Source: Alphaproteobacteria bacterium
Lineage (GTDB): Bacteria; Pseudomonadota; Alphaproteobacteria; TMED109
NCBI GenBank assembly: GCA_022819905.1
Contig: JAJEGJ010000071.1
Location: 1-62,291 of the forward strand
Length of the DNA stretch: 62,291 nt
Direction: 5' to 3'
A program made the position numbers and the translations under genes. This document shows positions 8,911 through 62,291 of this stretch, one piece after another; positions within the stretch are counted from its first letter, which is position 1; each line of letters opens with the position of its first letter. Under the pieces are notes generated by a model. The model did no database searches. It saw only the letters and a list, made by a program, of their open reading frames with translations, and was not told the origin of the DNA.

Positions 8911-8914
8911 GGTG

Positions 8915-9666
8915 TCAGGCTGGCTGGAAGGCCGCATAGCCGGCCCGTTCCAGTTCCAATGCGAGTTCGCGGTCGCCCGAGCGGGCGATCCGCCCGTCGG
9001 CCAGGACGTGCACCGAGTCCGGCACGACGTACTCGAGCAGCCGCTGGTAGTGCGTGATGACGACCAGGGCGCGCTCGGGGTTGCGCATGGCGTTGACCCC
9101 CGTCGCCACGATCCGGAGGGCGTCGATGTCGAGGCCTGAATCCGTCTCGTCGAGGATCGCGAGCCGGGGCTCCAGCATGGCCATCTGGAAGATCTCGTTC
9201 CGCTTCTTCTCGCCGCCCGAGAAGCCGGCGTTGACGTCGCGCCGGAGAAAGTCCTCGTCCATCTCGAGCCGGGCCAGGGTCGCGCGGGCGCCCTTCAGGA
9301 AATCGATCGCATCGATCGCGGACTCGCCCCGCGCCTTGCGCTGGGCGTTGAGGGCGGTGCGGGTGAAGGTGGCGTTGACGACGCCCGGGATCTCGACCGG
9401 GTACTGGAACGCCATGAAGACGCCGGTGGCCGCGCGCTCCTCGGGCTCCATCGCGAGGAGGTCCTGCCCGTCGTAGCGCACCTCGCCGTCGGTGACCTCG
9501 TAGCCGTCCCGGCCCGCCAGCACGTTCGACAGGGTCGACTTGCCCGACCCGTTCGGCCCCATGATGGCGGCGACCTCGCCGGCCGCGACGCTCAGGTCGA
9601 TGCCCTTCAGCACCTCCTTGTCGTCGACACTGGCCCGAAGGTTGCGAATCGTGAGAAGTGGTTCGC

Positions 9667-9670
<4 letters not shown>
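8915..9670 (-). CDS. sufC: SufC, ABC-type ATPase of SufBCD
   Basis: A 251-residue ABC ATPase. Walker A is GPNGSGKST near residue 38, the signature is [11 protein letters not shown] (the SufC form), Walker B is [12 protein letters not shown], and the switch histidine is in VITHYQR. SufC powers conformational changes of the SufB-SufD scaffold during Fe-S cluster assembly. Its ATG overlaps the sufB TGA (ATGA). Confidence 0.96.
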
Positions 9671-11141
<1,471 letters not shown>

Positions 11142-32168: not shown

Positions 32169-32176
32169 GACGGTGC

Positions 32177-33772: not shown

Positions 33773-33963
33773 CTAGACTCCGTGAGCGGCTGTCATCTCT
33801 GCGGTTGAGTCAAGTTCTGCGGAGCGGACCATACAAGAGAGCAAGGGCGGCTCGCCTGCGATCGAGGGCGAGGGCAAGACTCCCTCAATCCTGGGAGAAC
33901 CCGCCGGCCGACCAAGCGCCCGAACATGCACCACATGCTTCGTCGGACCGAGGCGAAGCCTCG

Positions 33964-36989: not shown

Positions 36990-37045
36990 GGATCTTCGCT
37001 GTCCTCCCGTTCACCGCCGGAGCTTCGCACTGCCGCATCGCCGGG

Positions 37046-40261: not shown

Positions 40262-40739
40262 TATGTCGGGTGTGGAATGAGCGATCGGGCGGCTTCCTGA
40301 CGTGAACTATCGACAGCCAGCTCCACAAGCATGATTTTGCGTGAATTACATTGGCTCACGGTCGGATCGCTCCCCAGCTTCAGATCTTCTCGGAGTGATG
40401 TCGAAGGGTTTCTCACGATTGCAGCCCAGAGAGGACGGCCGCCCCACGCGACGCGAGACCATACTGAAAGAACCTGTCACCAATGAATGACGCTCGGGTA
40501 CTACGGTGACGTCAGCACTGCGCAATAGCGTGTTGCGCCAGATCTGACAAACTCAGATCGTCGTCGACCCCGGCACCCTGAACGGACTGTAGGCCGCCCC
40601 GCCCCCAACGGGCAAACCCATGATCAGGAATCCACAGCCGAATCAGCTCGATACTCCTCGGGATGACCCCAACACGAGATCGGCCAGCGTAATCGGCAAG
40701 CCGGGACCGGGCGACTTAGGGCGACCACCCATGAACACC
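40262..40739. other. intergenic region upstream of drmA
   Basis: No gene is supported in these 478 bases, which separate drmA from the phospholipase D-helicase gene on the same strand. A small perfect inverted repeat, GATCTGA and TCAGATC with a five-base spacer, lies at 40541-40559. The drmA promoter should be here, but I cannot point to clear -35 and -10 boxes. Confidence 0.4.
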
Positions 40740-43700: not shown

Positions 43701-43865
43701 TCGCAGAAGGTGATAAATGTGGCGAGCTAGGAACTCTGGACGGACAGTTGCGTCCGCCGCTGCGACATCCACCCACCAACCTTCCGCGGCACGGGCATCG
43801 ATTTCTGTCTCCAGAGCGGAAGTCAGCAGATCTTCGTAAAGCCCGGAATGCAGTCGACGCGTCAT
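40740..43865 (-). CDS. phospholipase D - SF2 helicase - DUF3427 fusion
   Basis: A 1041-residue protein. Residues about 170-330 form a phospholipase D domain: TRLHAKAWLFHRHSG with H-x-K, followed by YIGSSNLTHTA. Residues 370-760 are a DEAD/H helicase: VVAATGTGKTWIAAFDF, VIVDEFHHAAAASYARLL, LGLTATPERADG and FAVDLFNEGVDLPEVDTV with QQLGRGLRWAEGKRVL. DUF3427 follows to the end. Stand-alone relatives are known in defence islands. The start at 43865 overlaps the preceding small gene (ATGA). It may supply the PLD activity that drmC gives in DISARM. Confidence 0.9.
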   Translation of the reverse strand: MTRRLHSGLYEDLLTSALETEIDARAAEGWWVDVAAADATVRPEFLARHIYHLLRRALEGIPEGKGTQAANQVALANRLVEVLEEHGVMADDRVADAARLLLEAVEHRVLGGTQSKISRPTLSLRQTGLLVNGRRDVQIASEIAREIPSADRIELLCAFVRHSGLRLFRSELEERVREGARVRVIASVYTGSTERRALDALVELGAQVKVSYEIARTRLHAKAWLFHRHSGLHTAYIGSSNLTHTAQVDGLEWNVRVSAAENPDVIERFSATFDQYWQEPEFEDYAPQRDSERLDRALSRQRGGTGKDDGLLLSLLVDVAPKPHQAVALEALEAERLRGYHRNLVVAATGTGKTWIAAFDFKQLRDQGVGGSLLFVAHREEILRQSQQVFQLVLREPGFGELLVAGERPRAGRHVFASVQSLANRIDDIDPDDFDVVIVDEFHHAAAASYARLLSRLKPKILLGLTATPERADGQSVLEWFDGRIASESRLWDALDQGLLCPFHYFGVNDATDLSNVRFARGRYVPGELDNVFTGDHVRALRVRQAVEEFVTDPHEMRALGFCAGIGHAHFMAGQFTNFGYPAVALDASTPRDDRRSALARLRRGEIRAVFAVDLFNEGVDLPEVDTVLMLRPTESATVFLQQLGRGLRWAEGKRVLTVLDFVGQVRREYRYDVRYRALLGGTRHQVRRAVEADFPLLPPGCALKLDRIAKETVLRNLSDAVQNARRRLADDLRALGPESRLRSFMDDAGVELEEIYARPGSGHCFTELRRRAGFEQSVVDDLLLSAIGRLIHVDDRERIEAWRDMLEADHFDQFSGLSGRKYRLGLMLFAVLGGRRQPIDEADQILERVRGSPDFRREIVDLLEILADRIRTVSQPLDPAGEVPLASHSTYSLGEIVAAHGHTDKRGALVYPQGGVLWNEATQTDLLFVTLEKSDRDYSPTTRYADYPISPTLFHWESQNTASPATPTGRRYVEQPVRGTNVILFVRERKRDGRGVTLPYHCLGRAHYRSHESERPMKILWELERPMPGWLYQAGKVVAG

Positions 43866-44164
43866 GGCCGGTCCGAACGGACGAGTGTGGTTTGCTGCAC
43901 TCGTGTCACCATGAGCTCTTGAAGCGTTCCTTCGTGGCCTGCGTCCTCCCCCAGGGGTTCGCCGGGCATCCGATCGATGAGCATCGTGAACACGCGGCGA
44001 AACGATCCCATTATCGCGTCTTCCGTCAAGACTTCCGATCGAGCGACCGAGAGCAGAGGGCGCGCGTCGAGCAGGAGGCGCGAGCAGGCACGCTTGGCGA
44101 GCTTCCACTCTTGGGTTTCCTCGTCTTCGTGCTCATCGTCGATGCCCTGCAGTAGTGTTAACAC
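43862..44164 (-). CDS. small partner gene of the PLD-helicase
   Basis: A 100-residue acidic protein, MLTLLQGIDDEHEDEETQEW at the N-terminus, with a helical middle (SFRRVFTMLIDRMPG). It begins at a GTG (44162-44164) and ends in a TGA that overlaps the helicase start by four bases, which argues it is translated together with the helicase. I do not recognise the family. Confidence 0.55.
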   Translation of the reverse strand: MLTLLQGIDDEHEDEETQEWKLAKRACSRLLLDARPLLSVARSEVLTEDAIMGSFRRVFTMLIDRMPGEPLGEDAGHEGTLQELMVTRVQQTTLVRSDRP

Positions 44165-44284
44165 GCCCTAGTCAACCAGATTTGTCTCCCGCGTCCAAAG
44201 TAGATGCGTGCTTTGTGGACGGTACCGCCGTTTTTTGGCGACTTGTCACTGCAGCAGCGCGCTACACACTCCACGAGAGTTCGG

Positions 44285-44312
44285 TTGAATTTGATGTTTT
44301 GTGGTGCATAAT
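44285..44312 (+). promoter_or_regulatory. sigma-70-like promoter of the ssp operon
   Basis: TTGAAT (44285-44290) and CATAAT (44307-44312) are separated by 16 bases, close to the consensus boxes. Transcription would start near 44319, just before the regulator gene. This 170-base region also lies upstream of the divergent phospholipase D-helicase operon, so regulators bound here could affect both. Confidence 0.55.
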
Positions 44313-44335
44313 GGTGTCATTTTATGGGGTGTCGC

Positions 44336-44557
44336 ATGCCGCGTCCACGGGGAAAGAGGACACCTGTGCGGCTGTCGGTCGGTCTAGATCCGGCGAGTTA
44401 TGCAAGGCTCTCTCGGCTGGCTGACAGGCATGGAGTGTCTTTGGCTTGGATGATTCGTAGGGCGATCGCCGATCTCATCGAGCGACAGCAGGAAAACGAT
44501 CAGATGGAGTTGCCATTACAGCGGCGCGCGGAAACCGACCATCCGGGACGGACATGA
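44336..44557 (+). CDS. ribbon-helix-helix regulator upstream of sspA
   Basis: A 73-residue protein with the CopG/Arc fold: TPVRLSVGLDPASYARLSRLADRHGVSLAWMIRRAI gives the beta strand and two helices. It would bind DNA as a dimer. I chose the ATG at 44336, preceded by GGGGTG; an ATG at 44324 would be nearly at the predicted transcription start. Its TGA overlaps the sspA ATG (ATGA), so it is the first gene of the ssp operon and probably its repressor. Confidence 0.75.
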   Translation: MPRPRGKRTPVRLSVGLDPASYARLSRLADRHGVSLAWMIRRAIADLIERQQENDQMELPLQRRAETDHPGRT

Positions 44558-45714
44558 GAGAGCGCATCTACCTCGATTATCAGGCTACAACGCCGCTCGA
44601 CTCGCGAGTTCTTGACGCGATGCTCCCATATCTCGAAGACAGGTTCGGAAACCCACATTCGGAGCATCTCTTCGGCTGGGAAACTGCTGAGGCGGTGGAG
44701 GAAGCGGCAAGAAATGTCGCTGCCCTCATAGGTGCCGATCCCGGCGAGATCATCTTTACCTCCGGTGCGACCGAAGCCAACAATCTGGCAATTCAGGGAA
44801 TCGCGCGAAGTAACGGGCGACGCGGCAATCACATCGTCACGACGGCGATCGAACATAAGTGCGTGCTCAACACAGCGCTGTCCCTTTGCAATTCGGGCAT
44901 CACGGTAGACGTTATTCCAGTGGACGAGCGTGGCTTGGTCGATCTGGCGGCATTGAAGACGACGGTGACGGACGCCACCGCCATGGTCTCGGTGATGACA
45001 GCAAGCAACGAAATTGGAACCGTGCAACCGATCGCAGAAATCGGTGCCTTCTGCAGAGAACGCGGGGTCGTGTTTCACACGGACGCAGCGCAGGCGGCAG
45101 GCAAACTTCCGATCGATGTCGCAGTGCTCAACATCGACCTGCTCAGCCTATCGGGCCACAAGTTCTATGGGCCGAAAGGGATCGGGGCGCTCTATGTTTC
45201 TCGACACTGCCCTGTTCCTCTTGCGCCCCTCATAATTGGGGGCGTGCAGCAGCAGGGATTAAGGGCTGGTACGGTCGCTCCGTTCTTGTGCGTCGGTCTT
45301 GGAGAGGCTTGCCGTATCGCTGGTACAGAACTCTCGCAGGAACGAGCCCATTGCGAGGCCCTACGCGACTCGTTCTGGTCGATCTTGTCTTCGTATCTGC
45401 CGGACGCCGCGATCAACGGTGACATGGTCCGCCGGCTCCCGCACAACTTGAACATCGTTTTCCCGGGGACCGACGCGGATTCGCTACTGGCGTCCGTACA
45501 GGGAGAAATCGCTGCTTCGACTGGGTCGGCCTGTAACGCAGGGTTGATTGAGCCGTCCTACGTGCTCCTAGCGCTCGGTTTGACGCTGGAAGAAGCCAAC
45601 AGCTCGATCCGCTTCGGATTTGGCAGGTTCACGTCCATGGACGATGTGGAACGGGCCGCCATGCTTCTTGCCGACAAGGTAGGACATTCTCACCGAACCT
45701 TCGCGGTTGCCTGA
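44554..45714 (+). CDS. sspA: SspA-type cysteine desulfurase (phosphorothioation)
   Basis: The 386-residue PLP enzyme is IscS/DndA-like. The PLP lysine is in LSGHKFYGPKGIGALYV near residue 203, and the catalytic cysteine is in STGSACNAGLIEPSYV near residue 327 on the long group I loop. In DNA phosphorothioation such enzymes supply sulfur to the ATP-pyrophosphatase-like subunit. The gene order here (sspA, DUF4007, ATPase, PAPS reductase-like) is the reason for the ssp name, since the sequence alone could be any IscS-type enzyme. Confidence 0.85.
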   Translation: MRERIYLDYQATTPLDSRVLDAMLPYLEDRFGNPHSEHLFGWETAEAVEEAARNVAALIGADPGEIIFTSGATEANNLAIQGIARSNGRRGNHIVTTAIEHKCVLNTALSLCNSGITVDVIPVDERGLVDLAALKTTVTDATAMVSVMTASNEIGTVQPIAEIGAFCRERGVVFHTDAAQAAGKLPIDVAVLNIDLLSLSGHKFYGPKGIGALYVSRHCPVPLAPLIIGGVQQQGLRAGTVAPFLCVGLGEACRIAGTELSQERAHCEALRDSFWSILSSYLPDAAINGDMVRRLPHNLNIVFPGTDADSLLASVQGEIAASTGSACNAGLIEPSYVLLALGLTLEEANSSIRFGFGRFTSMDDVERAAMLLADKVGHSHRTFAVA

Positions 45715-45772
45715 GGTGTATGTCGATGGAGAGTGTAACTCGCCATGGGCATGACATGGCTCAATCTTGAAC

Positions 45773-45789
45773 CTGGACGACTCGTCCAG
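45773..45789. promoter_or_regulatory. near-perfect palindrome before sspB
   Basis: CTGGACGA, one base, then TCGTCCAG, placed two bases before an AGGAG ribosome binding site and 12 bases before the sspB start. In RNA this would fold into a hairpin next to the ribosome binding site; in DNA it is symmetric enough for a dimeric regulator. It may set sspA and sspBCD levels separately. Confidence 0.5.
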
Positions 45790-45801
45790 TAGGAGACACC
45801 C

Positions 45802-46749
45802 ATGCTACGCGGGCCCCTCGGCGAACCCGATTTCAAGGACCAACAATTTTCAGGACATGAGACCTTCCCGCTCCGACACCTCTGGTTGCGGAAGGCCTAT
45901 GACACTGTCGCCAAATGCGAGCGGGGTGCTCCAAAGAAAATTTTCTCGGAGCCCGAGGCGATTATTACGTTCGGCGTTGGAAAGAACATGGTCGCGTCTA
46001 TCCGGCATTGGGCCATTGCCTGCGAGATTATCGAAGAGGATGGCGACAAGTACCGTCCGACCGAAATTGGGACGTTTCTGTTCGACAAAGGCACCGGGCG
46101 CGATCCCTTCATGGAGACCCCGGCGACAACATGGCTGATGCAGTCGATGATCGCCGGGACCCCCGCGCGGACGACGACTTGGTATTACGCCTTCAATCAC
46201 TTTGCAGCCCAAACCTTCGAACGCGATTCTATCACCACGCCAATCGGAGAACTGTGCAAAGAACGGGGATGGCAACGGACATCGACGGCCACGATCAAGC
46301 GGGATGTCGAATGCTTCATCAGAAGCTACGTTCCCCGAACCACCTCAAGGTTCTCTGACGACAGCATGGAACCAGTGCTCGCGGAACTGGGCTTAATTCG
46401 TCCCGTGAGCAGCAAGTTGTTCGAGTTTCGCAGGGGTCCTAAACCAAACCTGCCCGACGGGGTATTCCTGTTCGCGCTCGCCCGGTTCTGGGATGCGCAC
46501 GCACCCACCCAAAATACTATGGCTGTCGAGAGCCTAGCTTACGAGCCAGGCTCTCCCGGGCGCGTGTTCAAGCTCGATGAATATTCCCTGATCGAGCGGC
46601 TAGCACGAATCGACGATAGTTCTCGCGGACAATTCGCTTGGTCGGATACTGCGGGGGTACGCTATGTCGCCCGGAGGGTCGAGGGCGTGGAGCCGATGGC
46701 ATTGCTCGACCTAGCGTACCAAATTGGCACGCAAGGGAGGGTCGCCTGA
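45802..46749 (+). CDS. sspB: DUF4007 protein, SspB-type
   Basis: A 315-residue DUF4007 protein. Conserved blocks include FSGHETFPLRHLWLRKAYD, FGVGKNMVASIRHWAIA and TWYYAFNHFAAQTFERDS. In SspABCD systems SspB is a DNA-nicking subunit that makes the break at which sulfur is placed in one strand; that role comes from published family knowledge and is not visible in a motif here. It is followed one base later by the ATPase gene, so sspB and sspC are coupled. Confidence 0.85.
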   Translation: MLRGPLGEPDFKDQQFSGHETFPLRHLWLRKAYDTVAKCERGAPKKIFSEPEAIITFGVGKNMVASIRHWAIACEIIEEDGDKYRPTEIGTFLFDKGTGRDPFMETPATTWLMQSMIAGTPARTTTWYYAFNHFAAQTFERDSITTPIGELCKERGWQRTSTATIKRDVECFIRSYVPRTTSRFSDDSMEPVLAELGLIRPVSSKLFEFRRGPKPNLPDGVFLFALARFWDAHAPTQNTMAVESLAYEPGSPGRVFKLDEYSLIERLARIDDSSRGQFAWSDTAGVRYVARRVEGVEPMALLDLAYQIGTQGRVA

Positions 46750-46750
46750 A

Positions 46751-49700
46751 ATGATGCTCTCCGACCAGGTCAACGTTGCGCGCCGGTTTCAGCGTTCGAT
46801 ACGGGTGGACACGGACTTGGGCAGGGCCGCTGCTCTCAACGGCTTCGTCTGTCACGGCTCCAACAAGTTCGCCCTAGAGACCATGGCTAGGCTCATGGTG
46901 GAGACCGAACAGAGGGCCTTTACCTGGACCGGCCCATATGGCGGCGGCAAGTCCAGTTTGGCGGTCGCACTGTCCGCCTCGATCAGCGGCAACGCGAATT
47001 CGCGGGGCTGGGCCCACTCGCTACTTGGCGACGTACCCGAATTCGACCGGGCCTTTCCTGTCGAAATGGAAGGCTGGCTTGTGGTCCCCTTGGTCGGCCG
47101 GCGAGGCGATCCAATCGAAGACCTCCGCGAGGCGATTGCCATCGCGGTGGCTTCGGAGAGGGGTGCTCCAAGGACTCGGCGCCGCAAGACCGACAGGTCC
47201 GGCCGCGATGTGATCGAGCGGCTCCAGAGAGAAGCAGAGGCACGTCCGAAAGGTGGCGTGCTCGTTCTCCTCGACGAGATGGGCAAGATACTGGAGGGCG
47301 CCGCTGCCGGAGGAACGGATATCCACTTCTTCCAGGAACTCGCGGAGGCGGCCGGGCGATGCAAGGGACGACTGGTCATTCTCGGCATCTTGCATCAGGC
47401 GTTCGAGCAATACGCTTCGCGGCTGGGTCGAGAGGTACGAGACGATTGGGCCAAAGTTCAGGGACGCTACGTCGATATTCCGATCGTGACGGCCATCGAC
47501 GAAGTGATCGACCTTATCGGACGGGCGGTCATCTCAAGAGGCAAACATCCGGACAGCATGGCGGTTGCCGAGAGTGTGGCCAAAGCCATCAGCCGACGCC
47601 GGCCCGGCACCCCCGACGACCTGGCGGTACGTCTCGATGCCTGCTGGCCATTACACCCGGTAACGGCCACCCTGCTGGGGCCGATGTCCCGACGCCGCTT
47701 CGGTCAGAACGAGCGGAGTACGTTCGGCTTCTTGGGATCGAGTGAACCCGACGGCTTTCGCGAGTTCCTTCGCGCAGTCCCTGCGGCTAGCGGAGAGACT
47801 TACGACCCTGCGCGGCTGTGGGAGTATTTGAGAATCAATCTTGAGCCTACAATTCTCGCTTCGCCAGATGGACACCGCTGGGCGCAGGGCGCCGAGGCAG
47901 TGGAGCGATGCGAAGCCAGGGGATCGCCGCAGCATATCCGCCTAGCTAAGACCATCGCCCTTGTAGATCTGTTCCACAACGGCTCCGGCCTGGTAGCGGA
48001 GCGGGCTGTCCTTCGCGCCAGTGTCAACGACGTGGCCGAGAGCTTGGTTGACCAAGCGCTCGAAGATCTTGAGAGCTGGTCGGTGATCATCTTCCGGAGA
48101 CATTTGGATGCATGGGCGATCTATGACGGGAGCGACTTCGACATAGTGGAAGCCGTCGAAGTCGCGATCGCAAGCGCATCGGGCCTGAACCTGGACCGGC
48201 TTTCGCGTCTGGCGGATTTGCAGCCTCTGTTGGCGAAGGAACACTACTACCGGACAGGCACACTCCGATGGTTCGAAACGGACATCGTTCCGCTCGCGAA
48301 CGCATCCGCGGCAGTTCGGTCTTTCGAGCCACAGAACGGAACGTCAGGTAAATTCCTTCTGGCAATGCCGGAGGGCGACGAAACGCAGCGGGAAGCAGAG
48401 GAAATGTGCCGCGCCCTCTCGGAAGAGGCGGGAGACTGGCCCGTGGTCATTGGCATGTCCCGCAACCCCAAACTTATTCGCGAGCTTGGAGGCGAGTTAG
48501 TAGCCTTGGAATCCGTGCACGCGAATCGGCCTGAGCTGGAAGGCGACCATGTGGCACGGCGGGAAATCTCGGCTCGGATTGCCGCGGTGAGCGCACTGTT
48601 GGAGGAGGAACTAAAGACATCTTTCAACGAAGCGACTTGGTATTTACGCGGAAAGTCCCATGACGAAGCGGATACGCCGACATTGGCGCGGCTCGTGTCA
48701 CGCATCGCAGACGATACCTTCCCGGAGACGCCAATCGTTCATAGCGAACTGGTCAACCGCGAGAGGCCGTCCAGCAACAGTCAGGCCGCCGTGCGGCAGC
48801 TTCTTCACGCGATGGTCGGTCAAGGCACCGTAGAGCACTTGGGGATCGAGGGCTTTCCGGCTGAACGGGGCCTCTACAGCACCATTCTAGAAGCAGCCGG
48901 TCTACACGGTCCAACCAAGACAGGACCGGATTTCAAGGCACCGAGCGGGCGCAGTCCTGTCGGCAGAACCTTTCTCCCGATGTGGCGGAAGGCCGAAGAA
49001 CTGCTGGAGACGGCAGAAGAGCCTGTACCTTTGTCCGCGCTCTATGCGATATGGACGGCACCTCCCTACGGCATCCGCCGCGGTCTGCTTCCCATTCTCG
49101 CCATGGCCTTCATATTGGCGCACCAGTCGTCAGTGGCCGTGTATGCCCAGGGGGTCTTCCAGCCTAACGTCAACGACTTCGTGGCGGATCGCCTACTTCA
49201 AGACGAAGGGCCAATCTCTCTGCGTTTCGTTGTTCGCCGGTCGGATAACGAGCAACTCATGGCCGACCTCGCGCAGACGGTTGGCAGCATTACGGGAACG
49301 ACACCGGTAGCGGAGCCCTTGGCGGTCGCCCGTGCGTTGGTCGAGTTCGTGTTCCGGCTTCCCGCCTGGACGCGACGAACATCTTCCCTGACCAAGCCCA
49401 CGAAGGATGTGCGACGGGTGTTGCTGAATGCGAGCGACCCGCATCGGACTCTCTTCGTAGACCTGCCTCACGTCGCGACAGCTTCTGCAGGCTATCCGCC
49501 GGCAATCGCGATCCGTGAGGCGCTCGGTGAGTTGGCGAACGCCTACCAAGGCATGCTGGAAGGCCTACGTGATCGAATGTTGAATGCCCTGGGACACAGA
49601 GACAGTGATCTCGACGAGCTTCGCCATCGTGCACGCGTCGTGTCGGGAGTAAGCGGCGATCTTCGGGTTGAAGCCTTCGTTACACGTATCTCCGAATTTT

Positions 49701-50101
49701 GTGGCCGTCAGGAGGATATGGAATCTATCGCGGGACTCGTCGTCCATAAGCCGGCGCGCGACTGGTCCGATATGGAACCCACTCAAGCGGCGTTGGAGTT
49801 GGCGGACCTGGCTCTGCGTTTCCGACAGGCGGAGATGCTGGCGCGTGTACAGGGCCGGGAGCCAACACAACACGCCATGGCCGTGGTGTTCGGGACCGGT
49901 GAGGCAGAGCGCTCCTTCATCAAGAGTTTCAAAGTGCCAGAGGCGGAGCGAGTTGAGATCGGAGAGCTGGCCGAAAAGGTCATCTCCATGCTCAATGAAG
50001 CCGGACTGGACGCTGACCTGCTATTGGCGGCACTCGCCGAGGCCGGGCTCCGGGCTGCGCAAGCGGGCGAAATCCACACCCGAAAGGTGGCCACTTCATG
50101 A
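46751..50101 (+). CDS. sspC: large P-loop ATPase, SspC-type
   Basis: The 1116-residue protein has one clear Walker A, FTWTGPYGGGKSSLAVALSAS near residue 60, and a Walker B-like VLVLLDEMGKILEGAAAG near residue 167, resembling the AAA+/STAND-like ATPases of BREX and Ssp systems. The rest is helical with no recognisable nuclease motif. SspC is the ATPase of the phosphorothioation complex. Start 46751 was preferred because it follows the sspB stop by one base; an ATG one codon later is equivalent. The stop overlaps the sspD start. Confidence 0.85.
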   Translation: MMLSDQVNVARRFQRSIRVDTDLGRAAALNGFVCHGSNKFALETMARLMVETEQRAFTWTGPYGGGKSSLAVALSASISGNANSRGWAHSLLGDVPEFDRAFPVEMEGWLVVPLVGRRGDPIEDLREAIAIAVASERGAPRTRRRKTDRSGRDVIERLQREAEARPKGGVLVLLDEMGKILEGAAAGGTDIHFFQELAEAAGRCKGRLVILGILHQAFEQYASRLGREVRDDWAKVQGRYVDIPIVTAIDEVIDLIGRAVISRGKHPDSMAVAESVAKAISRRRPGTPDDLAVRLDACWPLHPVTATLLGPMSRRRFGQNERSTFGFLGSSEPDGFREFLRAVPAASGETYDPARLWEYLRINLEPTILASPDGHRWAQGAEAVERCEARGSPQHIRLAKTIALVDLFHNGSGLVAERAVLRASVNDVAESLVDQALEDLESWSVIIFRRHLDAWAIYDGSDFDIVEAVEVAIASASGLNLDRLSRLADLQPLLAKEHYYRTGTLRWFETDIVPLANASAAVRSFEPQNGTSGKFLLAMPEGDETQREAEEMCRALSEEAGDWPVVIGMSRNPKLIRELGGELVALESVHANRPELEGDHVARREISARIAAVSALLEEELKTSFNEATWYLRGKSHDEADTPTLARLVSRIADDTFPETPIVHSELVNRERPSSNSQAAVRQLLHAMVGQGTVEHLGIEGFPAERGLYSTILEAAGLHGPTKTGPDFKAPSGRSPVGRTFLPMWRKAEELLETAEEPVPLSALYAIWTAPPYGIRRGLLPILAMAFILAHQSSVAVYAQGVFQPNVNDFVADRLLQDEGPISLRFVVRRSDNEQLMADLAQTVGSITGTTPVAEPLAVARALVEFVFRLPAWTRRTSSLTKPTKDVRRVLLNASDPHRTLFVDLPHVATASAGYPPAIAIREALGELANAYQGMLEGLRDRMLNALGHRDSDLDELRHRARVVSGVSGDLRVEAFVTRISEFCGRQEDMESIAGLVVHKPARDWSDMEPTQAALELADLALRFRQAEMLARVQGREPTQHAMAVVFGTGEAERSFIKSFKVPEAERVEIGELAEKVISMLNEAGLDADLLLAALAEAGLRAAQAGEIHTRKVATS

Positions 50102-50937
50102 CCGAGAGACACGTTTTGGGGTTGTCAGGAGGTAGAGATAGCGCTGCGCTGGCAGTATTCATGCGGCAGACCTACCCGGAGCTAGATGTCGGATACTTCT
50201 TCACGGACACCGGCAAAGAACTACCCGAGGTCTATGAATTCCTCGGGCGGCTCGAAGGGTTTCTTGGCAAACGGATCGCGTACCTCAACCCCGACCGGAA
50301 CTTCGACTTCTGGTTGCGAGAATACGGTAACTTTCTACCGTCGCCGCGCACGCGCTGGTGTACGCGCCAACTTAAACTCCGGCCCCTCGAGCGGTGGATC
50401 CGGGATGACTTGAACGCCGGGACAAGTGTGATGAGCTATGTGGCCATTCGCGCAGACGAACCCGAGCGCATCGGGATGCACGCGACGCATCCGAATCTCC
50501 AAGTGCGGTTCCCTCTGCGAGAACACGGGCTCGACAGAGCTGCCGTCGTCGACTTGCTTGAGTCATCAGGACTTGGCCTGCCGACTTATTATCGATGGCG
50601 CTCAAGGAGCGGCTGCACCTTCTGCTTCTATCAGCAGAAGATCGAATGGGTCCGATTGAAGCGAGAGCATCCCGATGCGTTCGAGGAGGCCAAGAGGTAC
50701 GAGAAGACGGCGCTGGAGAGTGGTTCGCCGTTCACATGGAGCGACCGCGAATCCCTAGCTGAGCTTGAGCGTCCCGAGCGCGTAGCGGAGATTGAGGCCG
50801 ACTACGAAGCCCGGCTCGCCCGCAAGAGGCTCCGCCGACCCAAGAACCCTCTGCGGACAGGGCTAGAGGACATCGAGATCGATGAGGCGTACGGCACCGC
50901 CGAGGTCGCGGCTTCATGTGTCATTTGTCACAAATAA
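50098..50937 (+). CDS. sspD: PAPS reductase-like ATP pyrophosphatase, SspD-type
   Basis: A 279-residue protein of the DndC/PAPS reductase group. The PP-loop SGGRDSAALAVFM lies near residue 11. Cysteines that could hold an Fe-S cluster or carry sulfur are visible in RTRWCTRQLK, RSGCTFCFYQQK and ASCVICHK. It activates the DNA backbone for sulfur insertion in phosphorothioation. It overlaps sspC by four bases (ATGA) and is the last gene of the operon. Confidence 0.88.
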   Translation: MTERHVLGLSGGRDSAALAVFMRQTYPELDVGYFFTDTGKELPEVYEFLGRLEGFLGKRIAYLNPDRNFDFWLREYGNFLPSPRTRWCTRQLKLRPLERWIRDDLNAGTSVMSYVAIRADEPERIGMHATHPNLQVRFPLREHGLDRAAVVDLLESSGLGLPTYYRWRSRSGCTFCFYQQKIEWVRLKREHPDAFEEAKRYEKTALESGSPFTWSDRESLAELERPERVAEIEADYEARLARKRLRRPKNPLRTGLEDIEIDEAYGTAEVAASCVICHK

Positions 50938-55179: not shown

Positions 55180-55617
55180 ATGGGCACGAGCAACGAGGCC
55201 TACGGTGACCTGATCCGCCTCCCCCTTGGTGTCGCAAGCGCGGAGGAAATGTTGCGCCGGATGCCACTCGGCGTCCCTGCTTCCCAGGGGGGCATTGACG
55301 AATCCACGCTACGGGATCTGCTGTTCCGGTACCCGAAGACGCTGCCCATCGCTTCGATCGATGCAGCCTATGTCGGCACCGTGCCCGTCTGCCGGGAACT
55401 AGCCACGCAAGCGGGGTTCGTGGACGCACTGTACGCCAACCCGCAAGGGCGCCTGACGCTCGCCGAATTCAAGCTCTGGTGCAATCCGCAGGCGCGGCGG
55501 TGGGTCATCGGTCAGATCCTCGACTACGGCAAGGAGATCGCGACCTGGAACTACGAAGACCTGCAGCGCGAGGTATCGAGGACGCTTCCGTGAACCGGCA
55601 ACGTGACCTATGAACTA
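55180..55617 (+). pseudogene. PD-(D/E)xK nuclease-like gene cut by an IS element
   Basis: The first 137 codons read as a restriction-nuclease-like protein: LRDLLFRYPKTLPI, FVDALYANPQGRLTLAEFKLW (the D and E-x-K pattern) and NPQARRWVIGQILDYGKEIA. A TGA stops it at 55591-55593, but the same frame continues afterwards with TGNVTYEL, which looks like the natural continuation. The IS630 remnant then interrupts it at 55618. The C-terminal half is not found on the far side. It is therefore truncated by a nonsense change and an insertion. Confidence 0.6.
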
Positions 55618-56183
55618 GTGTCCTGATCGAGAAGTTTGTTCGATTACTTCCGCGTCCTGTGTGGGAGTATGGATCATGGGGAGACCAGCGGTTGCGATTA
55701 CCTTGTCGCCGGCGGAGCGTCAGGAGCTGGAGGGGTTGGCGCGGCGCCGGAAGACGGCTCAGGGCCTGACACGCCGGGCGCGGATTGTGCTGGCGGCGGC
55801 CGAGGGTCTGGAGAACCAGAGGATCGCGGAGCAGGTCGGCGCCGATGCCAACACCGTGGGGAAGTGGCGCCGCCGGTTTGCCGAGCGCCGGGTGGACGGC
55901 CTCCACGACGAGCCGCGCTCGGGTGCGCCGCGGAAGATCGGCGATGAACAGATCACCGAGGTGGTGACCCGCACGACAGCTGCGCCACGGTGTCCATCGC
56001 TCCACGCGCGAGCTTGAACAGGCCATCCGGGACTACATCGACACCGTCAACGCCAACCCGAGACCCTTCCGGTGGACCAAGTCCGCCGACGATATCCTCG
56101 CCACCATCAAACGCTTCTGCCTGCGCACCCTCGACACTGCTCAACGGCAGCACGAACTCGTCACAACTTCAGAATCAGGACAC
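55618..56183 (+). mobile_element. internally deleted IS630-family element
   Basis: The ends are perfect terminal repeats, GTGTCCTGAT and ATCAGGACAC, flanked by TA on both sides (55616-55617 and 56184-56185), the target duplication of the IS630/Tc1 group. At 566 bases it is about half of a full element. The transposase inside has lost its middle. It could still be mobilised by a complete copy elsewhere. Confidence 0.85.
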
Positions 56184-56186
56184 TAG
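55676..56186 (+). pseudogene. IS630 transposase, middle deleted
   Basis: The N-terminal part (AITLSPAERQELEGLARRRK, then the helix-turn-helix AEQVGADANTVGKWRRRF) is intact to about 55975. The C-terminal part appears in a different frame, with a run of ELEQAIRDYIDTVNANPRPF and FRWTKSADDIL, ending in SGH at the TAG 56184-56186. The catalytic DDE core between them is missing. Confidence 0.8.
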
Positions 56187-56247: not shown

Positions 56248-56853
56248 CTAACCTGCCGCTACATTTAGGTGATCCAACAACATATCTGACCACGTTTCAA
56301 GTTGCCCCCGGCAGCGCTTCAACTCATCAACAGAGCAAAGCGTTAACGCATCCAATGCCTTTTCTGCAAGTTCCTGTGGCGGTGTCCGTAGTGTCCATAT
56401 TTCCACCAGCCCAATGTGCACTCGACCTACCTCAGTCCCATTCTCGACCAATATCCCTTGCCATTCATGGTCAATGTAATCTAGGTCACCAAGCTCTTCT
56501 TCCATTTCCCTGACAGCTGCGCGACGTAGCGTTGCCTTCAAATCCACAACATTTCCGGCGGCTACAAGATCTGGAAGATCAACATGACCTCCAAAGCCAA
56601 TGGATTTGAGTTGATGTAATCTGGTTTCCCCGCTATCACTCGTCCGAGTGTACCGAACAAAACGATCGCCCACTCGAATCAGGACATAAGGTATCAATTG
56701 CCTAAATCGCGGATCCTCCTCAAGCATGTCACGAGGGCCCATCCAAAGCCCAGCCGAACTTAGCTTTTCGATCCCACTCAACGAGTGACAGGGATAAAAA
56801 CCAGTTTCACTGAAATGGCAATTTATTTTTGACGCAGTTACCGCAAGAATCAT
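56248..56853 (-). CDS. Nudix hydrolase-like protein (operon gene 6)
   Basis: A 201-residue protein with a Nudix-box helix RRAAVREMEEELGDLD preceded by a glycine-rich strand (IGFGGHVDLPDLVAAG) with a longer-than-usual insertion, so it is a divergent member. Nudix enzymes hydrolyse nucleoside diphosphates linked to another group. A GGGGAGG ribosome binding site is seen 12 bases upstream of the ATG. It is the last gene of a six-gene minus-strand operon and lies 28 bases after the ThiL-like gene. Low GC for the window. Confidence 0.75.
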   Translation of the reverse strand: MILAVTASKINCHFSETGFYPCHSLSGIEKLSSAGLWMGPRDMLEEDPRFRQLIPYVLIRVGDRFVRYTRTSDSGETRLHQLKSIGFGGHVDLPDLVAAGNVVDLKATLRRAAVREMEEELGDLDYIDHEWQGILVENGTEVGRVHIGLVEIWTLRTPPQELAEKALDALTLCSVDELKRCRGQLETWSDMLLDHLNVAAG

Positions 56854-56881
56854 TTTCGCTTCCGCCTCCCCAGTCGGCGCA

Positions 56882-57991
56882 TCACTGCTTCCTCAGAGGA
56901 TGAAACAGTTTTGTCTTGAGGATAAAATCTAGATGGCCATCCAAACCTGCGTTGAACCCACTAGTAACAAAGTTCTCGTTCCTGAGTGCTGTAACACTCA
57001 CTCTCTCTCCGGTGTGGAGTTGAGCTTCGATGCAACCCGTATTCGTGGTAGCGTGTCCCAAAACTGTGTACTCGATTTGTAGGTCCTCACAAACAGCACT
57101 AAACCGACTCATGTCCCGTGACTGTACACCAATCACTACAGACCAATCGCCCCAAGCAAAGAAAATGTTCCAAGGATCGATGCCAGTGCTGTGTGCAGCT
57201 TCTTGAACTAACTTAGGTAGCAGTGCCTCGTCCAGCTCAAGTTCAAACCCGCAATGAGATCCTCGAACAAGATTATCAATTGCGCCCAGAAGCCCGTCTG
57301 AAGTGTCCGAGGCAGCAACCACCAACCTCGCTTCCACAAGTCTTGCCATTTCCTTCAACTTTGGGCGTGGGTACTTCAAGACACTATCGCATAGTTTACT
57401 GTGCAAATACTCGGATTGAATTCCGTCTCTGGCTTCGGCCGCCACCAACAAGTATGCTGCCATGAATTCCCCAGTCGGACCGACAACAATTATGCGATCG
57501 TTCTCGCTAATACCAGTTCGTCCTACGCGACAACCTTCCCGGCAACTACCCACTGCGAACACTCGCGCAGCCAGTTTCGGACCATGACGAAGGTCCCCAC
57601 CCCCATTCCGAAACCCGAACTCCGAGCATGCCCGAAAGTAACCTCTCAGGTAGCTTACCAAGTCGTCAACAAGCATGCTTGGTGGCGCATCTATACAGTT
57701 GGCCATGCAAAGCGGTTTAGCCCCAGCTGTGGCAATGTCACTGGCACTTGCAACAACTGCCAACCAACCTGCGGCCTCTAGGTCATTTTGATACTTGTCA
57801 ATTTGCTGCAATAGCGGGGCCGGGCCGACATCCGCGGTTATTGCTAGTAGGGTCGTGGCTGAAGGTACAAACGCGCAGTCGTCTCCTACCGTGGTTTCGA
57901 CATCGAGCTCTCGCGCCAATGGCAACACAATTTCGTCAAGAAGGCGCAGTTCGCCAAGATTTCCCAACGTTAGCCCATCATACGATTGCAT
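56882..57991 (-). CDS. ThiL/PurM-superfamily protein (operon gene 5)
   Basis: The 369-residue protein has the AIR synthase-related fold. TTVGDDCAFVPS near residue 35 is the conserved G-D-D motif; ASASDIATAGAKPLCMANC and FGFRNGGGDLRHGP match the metal and nucleotide regions of ThiL-like kinases; and ASDTSDGLLGAIDNLV is the C-terminal GDG-like block. ThiL phosphorylates thiamine phosphate and relatives act in purine and hydrogenase assembly. No thiamine gene is near, so it is probably a specialised phosphotransferase. Its start overlaps the kinase stop (TAATG). Confidence 0.75.
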   Translation of the reverse strand: MQSYDGLTLGNLGELRLLDEIVLPLARELDVETTVGDDCAFVPSATTLLAITADVGPAPLLQQIDKYQNDLEAAGWLAVVASASDIATAGAKPLCMANCIDAPPSMLVDDLVSYLRGYFRACSEFGFRNGGGDLRHGPKLAARVFAVGSCREGCRVGRTGISENDRIIVVGPTGEFMAAYLLVAAEARDGIQSEYLHSKLCDSVLKYPRPKLKEMARLVEARLVVAASDTSDGLLGAIDNLVRGSHCGFELELDEALLPKLVQEAAHSTGIDPWNIFFAWGDWSVVIGVQSRDMSRFSAVCEDLQIEYTVLGHATTNTGCIEAQLHTGERVSVTALRNENFVTSGFNAGLDGHLDFILKTKLFHPLRKQ

Positions 57992-59274
57992 TAGTTCTCC
58001 CCCGTTTCAATCCACCGGCCAAGATAGTCTCCTGCCGCCAACACCGTTGCAATCAGTGCTGCCTGATTACGGGCATTGTCGAGATGCACTAACAACCCGT
58101 AGGCTATCACGAATAACGGGCCAAGATATTCTTCTTCCCAGTTTTTGACTACCTTATGCTTTTGCAGTTTACACCAGATCTTTTTGATGATCCTTGCATG
58201 TTGTCTAACGCTGGATGGCAATGACGCAGCATCTTGGTTAGGATCCAGGAACTTTGAAAGGCCAAGAATGCTCTTCTCATCAACTTGCGAGGGCAGAGTC
58301 ATGCTTCGTACATTAATGTCCAGCAAAATATAGTCTATAACTATTGGCGCGCGCTCTCGTGCCCAACCAAAATCAATAACCGAAGGAGTATTGGTCTCGT
58401 CCAACACGATATTCTTAGGGTGAAGATCTCCGTGAATTTGTCCTAGCGACGTCTCAAACGGCCTCTTCGTATCGATCAGTTTATCAACTATTTGTGCCGG
58501 ATTGGTCCATTCATGCCCGAACACGTTTATTCGCTGCGCTGTACCAAACAATCGACGAGGTATTGCGGCACGAGGTGCCTGGCTGTCGTTACACAAATGA
58601 GTGCCTCTAAGGTACTTCCATAATGCTCCGCAATATGTAACCTTGTCCCGGAGGGGAAGTGCAAGCTCGCCCGTGTGGATTGCGTTCATCCGCCGCAGCA
58701 CTATATTGATTACGTTACTAATATCCTCAAATTCCTGGCTGCCCTCATCTCTGGGCATTGACTCCAAAAGCTTCCACAAGTCATTAAGTTCAAGACGATA
58801 CTTGCCGGGGCGGTCAGGATTTACAAATCGTTCAATCCTGCCCGACTTGAATGGGGCAATCAACACTGCGTGCTCAGCACCATGTACGTATTGGTGAACC
58901 GGTATCGCAAAGTGACGTGCTAGTTCATCGCCCATGGTCCTCCACGCCTGAACAGAACTAAATTCCCTACCAATGCTTTTGGGGACGCCGATCTTTACCG
59001 TTAGCGGAAGTGACGGCTTAATTCCCTTTGCACCCGCCGTCTTGGTGTCCGAATAGTAAACGACAAATACCTCGGCACCACTCGCCCCTGGCGGGGCTCC
59101 GATTCGCTCAAGAGGTAACACGTTAAGTTCTGCGTCCAGACAGGCCGCCCCTTGGGCAGCCGGCCATATTTTCTCAACGTCCTTATTCAAGTATTCATCT
59201 AGCGCAGCAGTTAATGCATCTTGGTGATCGCGTGTCATCATGTCGAAGATGACCGTGGTGCGTATTTCAGGCAT
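57991..59274 (-). CDS. aminoglycoside phosphotransferase/kinase-fold protein (operon gene 4)
   Basis: A 427-residue protein with the kinase-fold catalytic loop GQIHGDLHPKNIVLD near residue 288 and the DFG-like VIDFGWARE that follows. A candidate nucleotide-binding lysine is in LPLTVKIGVPKSIG. The N-terminal half has a long region of unknown fold. Proteins of this shape phosphorylate small molecules or proteins; some relatives sit in nucleotide-activated conflict systems. The ATG directly follows the stop of the previous gene (TAGATG). Confidence 0.78.
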   Translation of the reverse strand: MPEIRTTVIFDMMTRDHQDALTAALDEYLNKDVEKIWPAAQGAACLDAELNVLPLERIGAPPGASGAEVFVVYYSDTKTAGAKGIKPSLPLTVKIGVPKSIGREFSSVQAWRTMGDELARHFAIPVHQYVHGAEHAVLIAPFKSGRIERFVNPDRPGKYRLELNDLWKLLESMPRDEGSQEFEDISNVINIVLRRMNAIHTGELALPLRDKVTYCGALWKYLRGTHLCNDSQAPRAAIPRRLFGTAQRINVFGHEWTNPAQIVDKLIDTKRPFETSLGQIHGDLHPKNIVLDETNTPSVIDFGWARERAPIVIDYILLDINVRSMTLPSQVDEKSILGLSKFLDPNQDAASLPSSVRQHARIIKKIWCKLQKHKVVKNWEEEYLGPLFVIAYGLLVHLDNARNQAALIATVLAAGDYLGRWIETGEN

Positions 59275-59895
59275 CTAGTCATCCTCTGGATAGGGCAGCG
59301 TATAAGGCAGCTGGAGGCTCGGTACAGAACCAATCAGCCACAGCCCATCATCTGCGGCGACGGTTGCATGTTCTGCCGCATCCCATGACACGTCAATTAC
59401 GCGTGGCTCACATTCTCCAGAGTCGTCGAATAACGTTAACGTCGATTGCTCAATTGAAGACACACGAAAAACGTGCAATGGACGTTCGCCTGACTGCTGA
59501 CCGGAAAGTATAGAATAGTCAACTCCAATGCCGACAATCACTTTTCGTCGCAAAGCTTCCCTGAGCACATCCTCGCACAAACCTAATGTAATTTCACACA
59601 AGCGAATATGACGGAACCGTAACGTCGTTGCATTGTTCCGCAAAAATATTTCAATTGCCTTGGCGGCGCTCGCTGCGGAAATACCAGCGGACTCAGTGGT
59701 TTCTGCTGTCAGCAGCCCAAAAGGATTGGCTTCATTTCGGACAACACGTACGCCGAGCATAGCCGGTAATTGCTCTGGTTTGTCGAACGGAATCCCCAAC
59801 TCTATGATAGCCGCATACAAAAATGCCGGGACACAGCATTGCGGGGGCCAGCGGAGGCCGTCTACGGTTAGACTTGCGTTCTCAACCATGGCCAT
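59275..59895 (-). CDS. papain/C39-like cysteine peptidase-like protein (operon gene 3)
   Basis: A 206-residue protein. RWPPQCCVPAFLYAAIIELG near residue 15 has the Q-x-C pattern of C39-type and papain-like peptidases; RPLHVFRVSSI provides a histidine and LTLFDDSGE an aspartate, so a triad is plausible. The family is not certain. Start at ATG 59895, overlapping the end of the dCTP deaminase-like gene by 14 bases; ATG 59889 is the alternative. Its stop is adjacent to the next start. Confidence 0.6.
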   Translation of the reverse strand: MAMVENASLTVDGLRWPPQCCVPAFLYAAIIELGIPFDKPEQLPAMLGVRVVRNEANPFGLLTAETTESAGISAASAAKAIEIFLRNNATTLRFRHIRLCEITLGLCEDVLREALRRKVIVGIGVDYSILSGQQSGERPLHVFRVSSIEQSTLTLFDDSGECEPRVIDVSWDAAEHATVAADDGLWLIGSVPSLQLPYTLPYPEDD

Positions 59896-60472
59896 CAGAT
59901 GTCGGAACCTGCCACTCTTCAAAAAGAAGAGGCGCAACTACTGGATCGGCTCCTTCGTAAATGCTTTTTTGAACTGATCGTTCACTTGAGTCCGCTATTA
60001 GTTCTAGCTGCAAATGAACCAACGGCGCACCCACTTCCAATATTAATGGCGACGGGTTACGATTGCACAATTCCAATGTCAACGCTGATGGCTCTGAAGT
60101 ACCAAACCCAGGATTAACCAGATTGGCATTGCCACATACTTCTAAGCCAAAACGGGCTATATGTGATATTGTAGAAATGTGCCCCACCATGTTGGCAGGT
60201 ATAGCTAATTTCTCGTGCGTACATCCTAATATAAACTCTCCGGGCCTTAGCGCCAATCTGTCAGCTTCTTCGGGATCTTCGAGATGCTCCCTTGCGGCAC
60301 ATGAAGACCATAAGACAATCGGCTCATTCAAACGGCGCCAGCGGCGAAATCTACGTCCAAGAGACAACACATAGCTAACCGATCTAACCCGCCGGCAATC
60401 AAACGGTTTTATGACCAATTGTTCGTCTTGGATTGCGCGAACGATCTCTTCACGAGTGACTAGCATGAGCAT
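59882..60472 (-). CDS. dCTP deaminase/dUTPase-like protein (operon gene 2)
   Basis: The 196-residue protein matches the dCTP deaminase fold: LRPGEFILGCTHEKLAIPAN, then GHISTISHIARFGLEVCGNANLVNPGF and SALTLELCNRNPSPLILEVG, where the glutamate of LTLEL is the equivalent of the deaminase catalytic residue. Bacterial relatives deplete dCTP during phage infection. Start 60472 (ATGCTCATGCTAG) overlaps the HIT gene by 23 bases; ATG 60496 and ATG 60466 are alternatives. Confidence 0.8.
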   Translation of the reverse strand: MLMLVTREEIVRAIQDEQLVIKPFDCRRVRSVSYVLSLGRRFRRWRRLNEPIVLWSSCAAREHLEDPEEADRLALRPGEFILGCTHEKLAIPANMVGHISTISHIARFGLEVCGNANLVNPGFGTSEPSALTLELCNRNPSPLILEVGAPLVHLQLELIADSSERSVQKSIYEGADPVVAPLLFEEWQVPTSDGHG

Positions 60473-61115
60473 TGCCGTATGCTTGGATTGTAGCAATGAG
60501 ATCAGGTTCTGGTGTCGTATATTCGCGCCAATTCCAAGGCCGGCTCACACCCAGGTACTCGGTCAGGATCCGTCTAAAATATTGCGATTCTGGGTACTGC
60601 ACCATATCCTTAACTTGGGAGTAAACTACTTTATTCTCATACCCAAAGAGCAAATAGTGATCGCTATTAGAAAGGTCTCGGAGGGCGCAGCAAAGATCTT
60701 CCGCCGAACTACGATAATCAGGAAGGACTGTCGTCACAGGGATGCGGTGCGGAAGCGGAACCAGGTGCAAATGAGCATGATAAATACCACAGCTACCACC
60801 AGTATAGCTTTGAGCTCCGTGTTCAAAAAACGCCGGGTATCCAAATTGTTGGGTAATGTCGAGTAGGTCTCCCAGAAAGTCGCAAAGTAGCAACTTTTGT
60901 TGAAGCGGTAGCCTTGCACAGCTCTCCACATGGTTTTCTGGAAGAATCAACAAGCTACCGGGAAATATCTGGCCCAAAGTAGGTAGCGCGACAAATCCGC
61001 GGTTCCGCGCGATAATCCGACTGCCAACTTTAGGGTACATCACGTTAAAGCGGGAACGTGATTCCCCCATCAATTCATCACAGAATTCGCACGCTGGTTC
61101 TTCAAGATTGGCCAT
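60450..61115 (-). CDS. HIT-family protein (operon gene 1)
   Basis: A 221-residue histidine-triad protein. The triad is CGIYHAHLHLVPLPH near residue 115; an N-terminal CEFCDEL could bind zinc, as in other HIT hydrolases. HIT proteins hydrolyse or transfer nucleoside monophosphates. It has a strong GGGGAG ribosome binding site and is the first gene of the low-GC operon, so the promoter should lie just upstream of 61115 on the minus strand. Confidence 0.85.
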   Translation of the reverse strand: MANLEEPACEFCDELMGESRSRFNVMYPKVGSRIIARNRGFVALPTLGQIFPGSLLILPENHVESCARLPLQQKLLLCDFLGDLLDITQQFGYPAFFEHGAQSYTGGSCGIYHAHLHLVPLPHRIPVTTVLPDYRSSAEDLCCALRDLSNSDHYLLFGYENKVVYSQVKDMVQYPESQYFRRILTEYLGVSRPWNWREYTTPEPDLIATIQAYGNAHASHS

Positions 61116-61418: not shown

Positions 61419-61649
61419 TCGGTCTCGGTGGTCGTGGCGGCGGGCGTTGAAACGCACGAGAGCCCCGACGGTCCGAATGTCGACCTTGAATCCACAGGCG
61501 ACGTGGTCGGTTTCGATATCGACCATGCGGCCCGGCGTCTCGATCTCTCGACGCCGGAGATGGAGGCATTGCCGTTGCCCCAGTTCAGCGTCGGTTGTTC
61601 CGTGGCGCTCGGGTTCTTCGGGATACGATGGGCGAGGAACGGCCGGTGA
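61419..61649 (+). pseudogene. DUF2283-like remnant
   Basis: The frame contains GVETHESPDGPNVDLESTGD, followed directly by VVGFDIDHAARRLDLSTPEM, which is the C-terminal two thirds of a DUF2283 protein. The usual N-terminal YDxxxDxLYI strand is not found in frame upstream, so only the end seems to be left. DUF2283 genes often accompany toxin-like partners. The 300 bases before it (61116-61418) hold nothing I can name. Confidence 0.45.
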
Positions 61650-61936
61650 GCCGAGACGAAATGCTCGCCCTACTGCGGGCACACAAGGCAACCCTCGCGC
61701 AGTGCTTCGGCGTCACCGATCTCGCCCTGTTCGGTTCCTTCGCCCGCGATCAGGCGGGCGAGGGCAGTGACGTCGATGTCCTCGTGCGTTTCGACGGACG
61801 AGCGACCTCCATTCGCTACTTCGGCAGGCAGTTCTGCATCGAAGACCTGCTGGGTCGCTCCGTCGATCTGGTGACCGACGGCGCCGTGCGCCGAGAACTG
61901 CGTCTCTACGTCGAGCGCGGGGCGATTCCTGTCTGA
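61628..61936 (+). CDS. MNT-type nucleotidyltransferase antitoxin
   Basis: A 102-residue minimal nucleotidyltransferase with LALFGSFARDQAGEGSDVDVLV, the GSx10DxD motif, near residue 33. In HepT/MntA pairs this protein adenylylates the HEPN toxin and silences it. It begins inside the DUF2283 remnant and its stop overlaps the probable start of the HepT gene. Confidence 0.82.
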   Translation: MGEERPVSRDEMLALLRAHKATLAQCFGVTDLALFGSFARDQAGEGSDVDVLVRFDGRATSIRYFGRQFCIEDLLGRSVDLVTDGAVRRELRLYVERGAIPV

Positions 61937-62291
61937 GCGGGAACGGGAACCGCGGGGGCGGCGTTTCTGTGTCGAGGACATGATCGGGTTCTGCGAACGG
62001 GGCCGGGACTATACCGCTGGGCTGGACCAGGCCGTGCTCATCGCAAGCCCCATGCTCTGCGACGTCACCCTATGCAACCATGAGCTCGTCAGTGAAGCGG
62101 CAACCCGGATCCCTGAAGAAGTACGTGACGCCCGTCCGGAAATCCCCTGGCAAACCATCATCGGGACACGCAACCGCCTCAATCACGGATATCTCAGCAT
62201 CGACAATGACATCGTCTGGGACATCACCTGCAACGACGTTCCCGCGCCGCTGGCATCGCTGCGGGAACTGTTCGAGGCGACAAGGCAGCGA
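61929..62291 (+). CDS. HepT-like HEPN toxin, cut by window edge
   Basis: At least 121 residues, open to the right edge. The sequence RRFCVEDMIGFCERGRDYTAGLDQ and WQTIIGTRNRLNHGYLSIDND matches HepT; RNRLNHGY is the R-x4-6-H RNase motif of HEPN toxins. The frame begins at a CTG (61929) where relatives have ATG, overlapping the MNT stop; a later ATG at 61979 is the alternative. With the upstream gene it makes an MNT/HEPN toxin-antitoxin pair. Confidence 0.75.
   Translation, partial: MSEREREPRGRRFCVEDMIGFCERGRDYTAGLDQAVLIASPMLCDVTLCNHELVSEAATRIPEEVRDARPEIPWQTIIGTRNRLNHGYLSIDNDIVWDITCNDVPAPLASLRELFEATRQR

Follow-up and report, generated by a model that had tools for sequence, protein, structure and literature searches.

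A rare six-gene operon with a nucleotide theme at the edge of an alphaproteobacterial defence island

The locus described here is a run of six genes on contig JAJEGJ010000071.1 of an alphaproteobacterial assembly (GCA_022819905.1, TMED109 lineage), and among the described systems that invite comparison with it are anti-phage systems built around nucleotides. In the Kongming (KomABC) system the signal is the base-modified nucleotide dITP, which is joined by a house-cleaning-type nucleotide-binding protein and a separate effector (PMC12948488). Clover combines a dGTPase, CloA, with a nucleotidyltransferase, CloB, and its signal is p3diT. Judging from these two examples, nucleotide signals are a real part of anti-phage defence; the operon shows none of the features that define membership of either system. 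The likeness to Kongming is one of analogy: Kongming has an adenosine deaminase, HAM1 and SIR2, none of which is found among the six operon proteins. In Phycisphaerae a relative of the operon's HIT protein is fused to HAM1/RdgB. With Clover the operon shares a nucleotide-pool theme, and one locus carrying HIT and ThiL-like relatives also has an HD-domain protein, but neither an HD dNTPase nor a CBASS-type nucleotidyltransferase occurs among the six.

Searches of Pfam, NCBIfam, PADLOC, PHROGs and the open-access literature found no name for this set of six genes, which bears out, for the libraries and literature covered, the remark in an initial annotation of the sequence that no described system has it. 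The single families are known. It is their combination, and its task, that appear new as a gene set, with the reservation that the reactions involved could turn out to belong to nucleotide-based immunity or to nucleoside biosynthesis. The reading we prefer, with a probability of roughly 0.42, is that the operon is horizontally mobile and that its six enzymes build, alter and break down a single phosphorylated small molecule of an unusual kind. This molecule would most probably derive from a pyrimidine nucleotide and serve in conflicts with phages or other mobile elements. Within the window (the whole stretch of 62,291 nucleotides that was analysed), the genes are transcribed in the order HIT, DCD-like, C39/papain-like, APH-fold kinase, ThiL-like and Nudix:

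60450..61115, minus strand: gene 1, HIT protein of 221 amino acids, with an N-terminal CxxC and an HxHxH motif (H113/H115/H117)
59882..60472, minus strand: gene 2, dCTP-deaminase-like (DCD-like) protein, PF22769, with its ATG at 60472 or 60466 by alignment
59275..59895, minus strand: gene 3, C39/papain-fold cysteine enzyme by its AlphaFold model, with the triad C35-H155-D171
57991..59274, minus strand: gene 4, APH-fold kinase (Pfam TCAD9/APH) of 427 amino acids, with K94, HGDLHPKN and IDFG
56882..57991, minus strand: gene 5, ThiL-like kinase (AIR-synthase superfamily) of 369 amino acids, with WGDW in place of GEDYEL
56248..56853, minus strand: gene 6, Nudix hydrolase of 201 amino acids, with the box REMEEELG

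The six open reading frames at 56248-61115 are all intact, they overlap or abut, and the six family assignments made at the outset hold. The HIT stop overlaps the DCD-like ATG at 60472 by 23 bases, the DCD-like stop overlaps the C39-like ATG at 59895 by 14 bases, the C39-like stop abuts the APH start (TAGATG), and the APH stop and ThiL-like start have one base in common (TAATG), just as had been described; a gap of 28 bases separates the ThiL-like gene from the Nudix gene. The ATG starts of the DCD-like and C39-like genes lie inside longer TTG frames and are favoured by alignment with relatives; residues are nevertheless numbered here on the longer frames, from 60496 and 59937, respectively. 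The block was also said to be richer in A + T than its neighbours, and it is: its genes have a GC content of 0.48-0.51 and a GC content at third codon positions (GC3) of 0.41-0.51, against 0.58-0.70 and 0.62-0.88 in six other genes of the window. Because its GC3 composition departs from that of its surroundings, the block was probably acquired.

The set is not peculiar to this genome. A scan with a four-member HIT alignment gave nine loci, two of which, in Hyphomonas oceanitis (L028) and in a metagenome-assembled genome (MAG) of Marinicaulis (L029), carry the complete set with order and strand unchanged, every protein being at 36-48% identity. The initial annotation would have given up its proposal had the genes been found together in no other genome; the presence of the whole set, in order, in two further genera is more than chance would give. 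In a tree of 18 HIT proteins, those of the three six-gene operons form one group (support 100/98). Shorter versions also occur. The archaeon Methanoperedens nitroreducens (L030) has a four-gene set, HIT-APH-ThiL-DCD, and an alphaproteobacterial MAG (L033) has the C39-like, HIT, DCD and APH genes, after which the contig ends. A ThiL fragment found in the genome of this MAG proved to be an ordinary thiL beside rib/nusB-type genes. A Phycisphaerales contig (L032) carries Nudix, HIT and a partial DCD; at 1890-2927 its HIT is split over two frames and the match to DCD breaks off early, so that the copy may be decaying or the assembly may contain errors. In two Streptomyces loci (L024 and L036), DCD-like and HIT genes are followed by an unnamed protein of 314 amino acids and a cysteine desulfurase. 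The run in L024, at 7441-10741, is plasmid-borne, and the same plasmid has a phage portal gene.

Carriers are very rare. The APH profile found a match in 1 of 105 Hyphomonadaceae, in 1 of 62 genomes of the Marinicaulis family and in none of 397 other sampled genomes of the window's phylum; in the archaeal phylum a match of the full-length type was seen in Methanoperedens only. Two further archaeal APH matches (L060 and L061) were set aside, their neighbourhoods having no other operon members. The C39-like protein matched nothing on plasmids or in 288 further genomes of the class, and the Nudix relatives found on plasmids sit among unrelated genes and are uninformative. No relative appeared in 2.9 million viral contigs with P0001 and the HIT, C39, ThiL and APH alignments as queries, each giving few patterns to search with, and a single-protein genome scan with P0005 had no match with patterns that were too exact. 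Most carriers show genes of mobile elements: a relaxase in L028, an integrase-core fragment in L047, a conjugative coupling protein in L049, and in L033 a phage-type integrase together with a DNA methylase. This distribution, together with the mobile linkage, is the pattern of rare mobile cargo. Beside the Marinicaulis operon, at 5896-11928 of L047, genes for a metallo-beta-lactamase protein, a HELAHH-bearing protein, an unnamed protein of 296 amino acids and a TauD-family protein may make up a further conflict module.

The DCD-like protein matches PF22769 (E 8.6e-24), its closest solved structures are those of the M. tuberculosis Dcd (2QXX/4A6A, E 1.6e-31), and the catalytic S111, R115 and E142 are invariant in 7/7 members. 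In E. coli Dcd, R110, S112 and D128 hold the triphosphate and the deoxyribose. The equivalent positions are I/L, H and N/G/S/L in all seven members. Compared with the M. tuberculosis-type dCTP deaminase/dUTPase, with which the protein shares its catalytic residues, K-S-S has become I/L-S-H, DPGF has become N/G/S/L-PGF/W, and IGQL has become xHL or xRL. These changes bear on the idea, raised in the initial annotation, that the cluster acts by depleting dCTP. In such a scheme the DCD-like protein would do the work, with the other five as accessories. The retained catalytic residues speak for it, as does the presence of dCTP deaminases among known defence enzymes. That said, plain depletion is unlikely because the known substrate-recognition residues have been lost; moreover, the protein scores 89.3 bits on TIGR02274 (dCTP deaminase), just below the curated equivalog cut-off of 92.8. 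The AvcD-type deaminases of defence islands are pyrimidine deaminases too, but they have the zinc-dependent cytidine-deaminase fold, whereas the operon protein belongs to the dUTPase-fold DCD family, has an altered pocket and comes with five partner enzymes. Direct dCTP depletion is accordingly given very little weight.

The ThiL-like protein tells a similar story. It matches AIRS/AIRS_C and TIGR01379 (E 2.5e-35), is homologous over its length to solved ThiL structures (E 5e-33), and has the GDD and SDG motifs of thiamine-monophosphate kinase. Its TIGR01379 score of 122 bits is, however, below the curated equivalog cut-off of 184, and of the motifs by which its pocket was judged, GxHF is replaced by GPAP/DPTP and GEDYEL by WGDW. 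It is an extra copy, a second paralogue in a genome with an ordinary ThiL-level match elsewhere; the search for ThiL in relatives gave ordinary ThiL-level matches only. One could imagine a thiamine antimetabolite, in which the APH protein, acting like ThiK, and the ThiL-like enzyme make the diphosphate while the DCD-like protein deaminates the aminopyrimidine, yielding a poison of the oxythiamine type. ThiK does have the APH fold, ThiL makes thiamine diphosphate (TPP), and thiamine contains a 4-aminopyrimidine. Thiamine synthesis is nonetheless unlikely because the known substrate-recognition motifs of ThiL are lost; a search for a TPP riboswitch came up empty, and there is no ThiK family match. 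Of all the explanations weighed, this one is the least probable.

The kinase upstream matches TCAD9 (PF19974, E 6e-13, 49.3 against a gathering cut-off of 40) and APH (PF01636, 26.8 against 23.2). Its K94 does not vary among members, and every complete member has HGDLHPKN. Its structural model has low confidence (predicted local distance difference test, pLDDT, 64) and lies nearest to small-molecule kinases, with maltokinase at Z 12.0 and a root-mean-square deviation of 4.9 over 280 residues; this gives only a hint that the substrate class is of the small-molecule kinase type. Against PADLOC 2023 the APH protein gets only generic short kinase-motif matches (PD-T4-6, mad6), and the other five proteins get none. 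The C39-like protein was modelled with a pLDDT of 76, and phytochelatin synthase, CtaG and C39 (the PCAT peptidase domain) align to the model at Z 11-13 over 127-154 residues. C35, H155 and D171 are invariant among its members, giving a Cys-His-Asp triad on a C39/papain fold; the usual oxyanion Gln is not conserved. As for the Nudix protein, its PF00293 score of 18.5 bits is under the cut-off of 21.1, its profile matches structure 3E57 at E 7e-26, and R115, E116, E119 and E120 of the box (REx2EExG) that marks the superfamily are invariant.

Some of these comparisons lend themselves to another explanation, a small biosynthetic cluster whose kinase, deaminase, nucleotidyl transferase and C39-fold acyltransferase would together assemble a natural product of nucleoside type that leaves the cell. 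In fold the C39-like protein is similar to two condensing enzymes, CtaG and CcbD; small-molecule kinases come closest to the APH model; and one Rhizobium HIT locus, with genes for PRPP synthase, PfkB, TrpD, a methyltransferase and a dioxygenase, looks biosynthetic. On the other hand, no copy of the operon shows a transporter, a resistance gene or a carrier/ligase, the operon lies in a defence island and is carried on mobile elements, and there is a minimal four-gene form in an archaeon. We regard such a cluster as unlikely, though it is the strongest competitor of the reading we prefer.

The HIT protein, unmatched in single-sequence Pfam searches, is best understood through its family. Pfam HIT is found in 9/11 members, relatives match HIT, CwfJ_C_1 and DcpS_C, and H113, H115 and H117 of the HxHxH catalytic motif that marks the superfamily are invariant in 11/11. 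In Bacteroidales the neighbours of such proteins are ThyX, an AAA ATPase, and DHFR or PRA-PH genes; in Rhizobium they are genes for dTMP kinase, PRPP synthase, PfkB and TrpD. In Phycisphaerae one member adjoins a small PRA-PH-like protein, and a second genome has a member joined to a Ham1/RdgB domain. The nucleotide theme first noticed in the operon is thereby strengthened, and the neighbours point to nucleotide enzymes in a guilt-by-association comparison made without a random-neighbour control. The same associations would suit a house-cleaning or salvage set on mobile elements that clears a damaged or foreign nucleotide and does not make one: the HIT, Nudix and DCD families hydrolyse nucleotides, and HIT relatives are fused to RdgB or stand beside PRA-PH/MazG. 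Clean-up has no need of two ATP-dependent kinases or of a cysteine enzyme of the peptidase or acyltransferase kind, and the extreme rarity of the operon also argues against it, so that we hold this explanation to be improbable, somewhat more so than a biosynthetic cluster.

Several relatives of the HIT protein deserve a note of their own. In Phycisphaerae (L068, 7436-8689) the fusion of a Ham1/RdgB-type NTP pyrophosphatase to HIT adjoins a fusion of pyruvate kinase and dTMP kinase. At 7879-13295 of L069, HIT and ThiL-like genes are followed by those for a 433-amino-acid protein without a Pfam match and an 816-amino-acid HD and methylase-like protein, next to a DNA methylase. In five proteobacteria a HIT relative recurs with a membrane protein (about 190-240 amino acids) and a protein of 810-900 amino acids with a MazG-like C-terminal part:

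L026 5911-9567, L034 7911-11795, L035 6190-10127, L074 4422-8139 and L077 2458-6430: HIT/membrane/MazG-like three-gene set

The HIT proteins of this set form one supported group (96/92). In the Caulobacter copy alone does PRA-PH exceed the Pfam cut-off, the MazG-like part of the other copies being recognised by inspection of their sequences; the set, which is separate from the operon, resembles a conflict module linked to nucleotides in which the membrane protein would be the effector.

The preferred reading, a mobile pathway for one unusual phosphorylated molecule, starts from what was observed: the genes are conserved as a unit, patchily spread and linked to mobile elements, and their products retain catalytic residues, with altered substrate motifs in the DCD-like and ThiL-like proteins. 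The substrate, product, order of steps and role in defence that we infer would be as follows. The APH kinase would phosphorylate a hydroxyl, and the ThiL-like enzyme would put a second phosphate on the phosphate so made, by the in-line transfer onto a phosphate monoester known for ThiL (PMC6416309). The DCD-like protein would hydrolyse the exocyclic amine of a pyrimidine-like ring other than dCTP, and HIT may cleave or transfer a nucleotidyl group. The product could work as a signal in immunity or be toxic as an analogue of a nucleotide, with Nudix as a brake that removes the diphosphate product and the C39-fold cysteine enzyme as the effector (a protease), or else as an enzyme that adds or removes an amide-linked group. 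Either of two ideas in the initial annotation, a nucleotide signal with a peptidase as effector or a compound derived from a nucleotide, may apply.

Some observations weigh against this reading. The complete set is known from three genomes only, with partial sets in a few more, and Methanoperedens has no C39 or Nudix gene, so both may be accessory. The C39-fold neighbours include the natural-product acyltransferases CtaG and CcbD, which would fit a biosynthetic cluster equally. There is no classical sensor or membrane effector in the operon, and in one locus (L067) a HIT relative is flanked by a pyrB-like and a pyrC-like gene, which is a housekeeping setting.

A bolder proposal, which we think doubtful, is that the operon represents a new class of immunity. 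Its signal or poison would be a deaminated, doubly phosphorylated pyrimidine-type nucleotide made by the APH, ThiL-like and DCD-like proteins, with HIT and Nudix as the off-switch and the C39-fold enzyme as effector, and the HIT family would be the hallmark of a broader range of such systems, in which synthases and effectors (membrane proteins, HD enzymes) can be swapped. Mobile DNA of bacteria carries a complete, transferable pathway of six enzymes whose active sites are conserved and for which no product is known; an archaeon has a form with four of the genes. Should a nucleotide signal or antiviral nucleotide be its product, prokaryotic immunity would gain a new chemistry besides those of cyclic nucleotides, ddh-nucleotides and dITP. 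Expression and mass spectrometry allow a direct search for this product, and the HIT family offers a sequence handle to related systems overlooked by gene-name searches.

The surroundings in the window agree with the initial annotation, which placed the operon at the edge of a defence island and beside the remnant of an insertion sequence:

30582..50937: defence island adjoining the operon, with NERD-helicase, DrmB, DrmA, a type IV restriction endonuclease and SspA-SspB-SspC-SspD
55615..56186: internally deleted IS630-type element, with helix-turn-helix domains and 22-nt terminal inverted repeats, about 60 bp past the 3' end of the operon
61595..62291, plus strand: MntA-HepT type toxin-antitoxin pair (NTP_transf_2 and HepT-like), the second gene cut by the end of the window

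DrmA and DrmB are DISARM-type genes. Between SspD and the operon, at 51342-53780 on the minus strand, lies an open reading frame of 812 amino acids without a Pfam or PADLOC match. The IS630 assignment was made by inspection; the element has shrunk to about 570 bp and retains both terminal inverted repeats, and it is possibly a miniature element.

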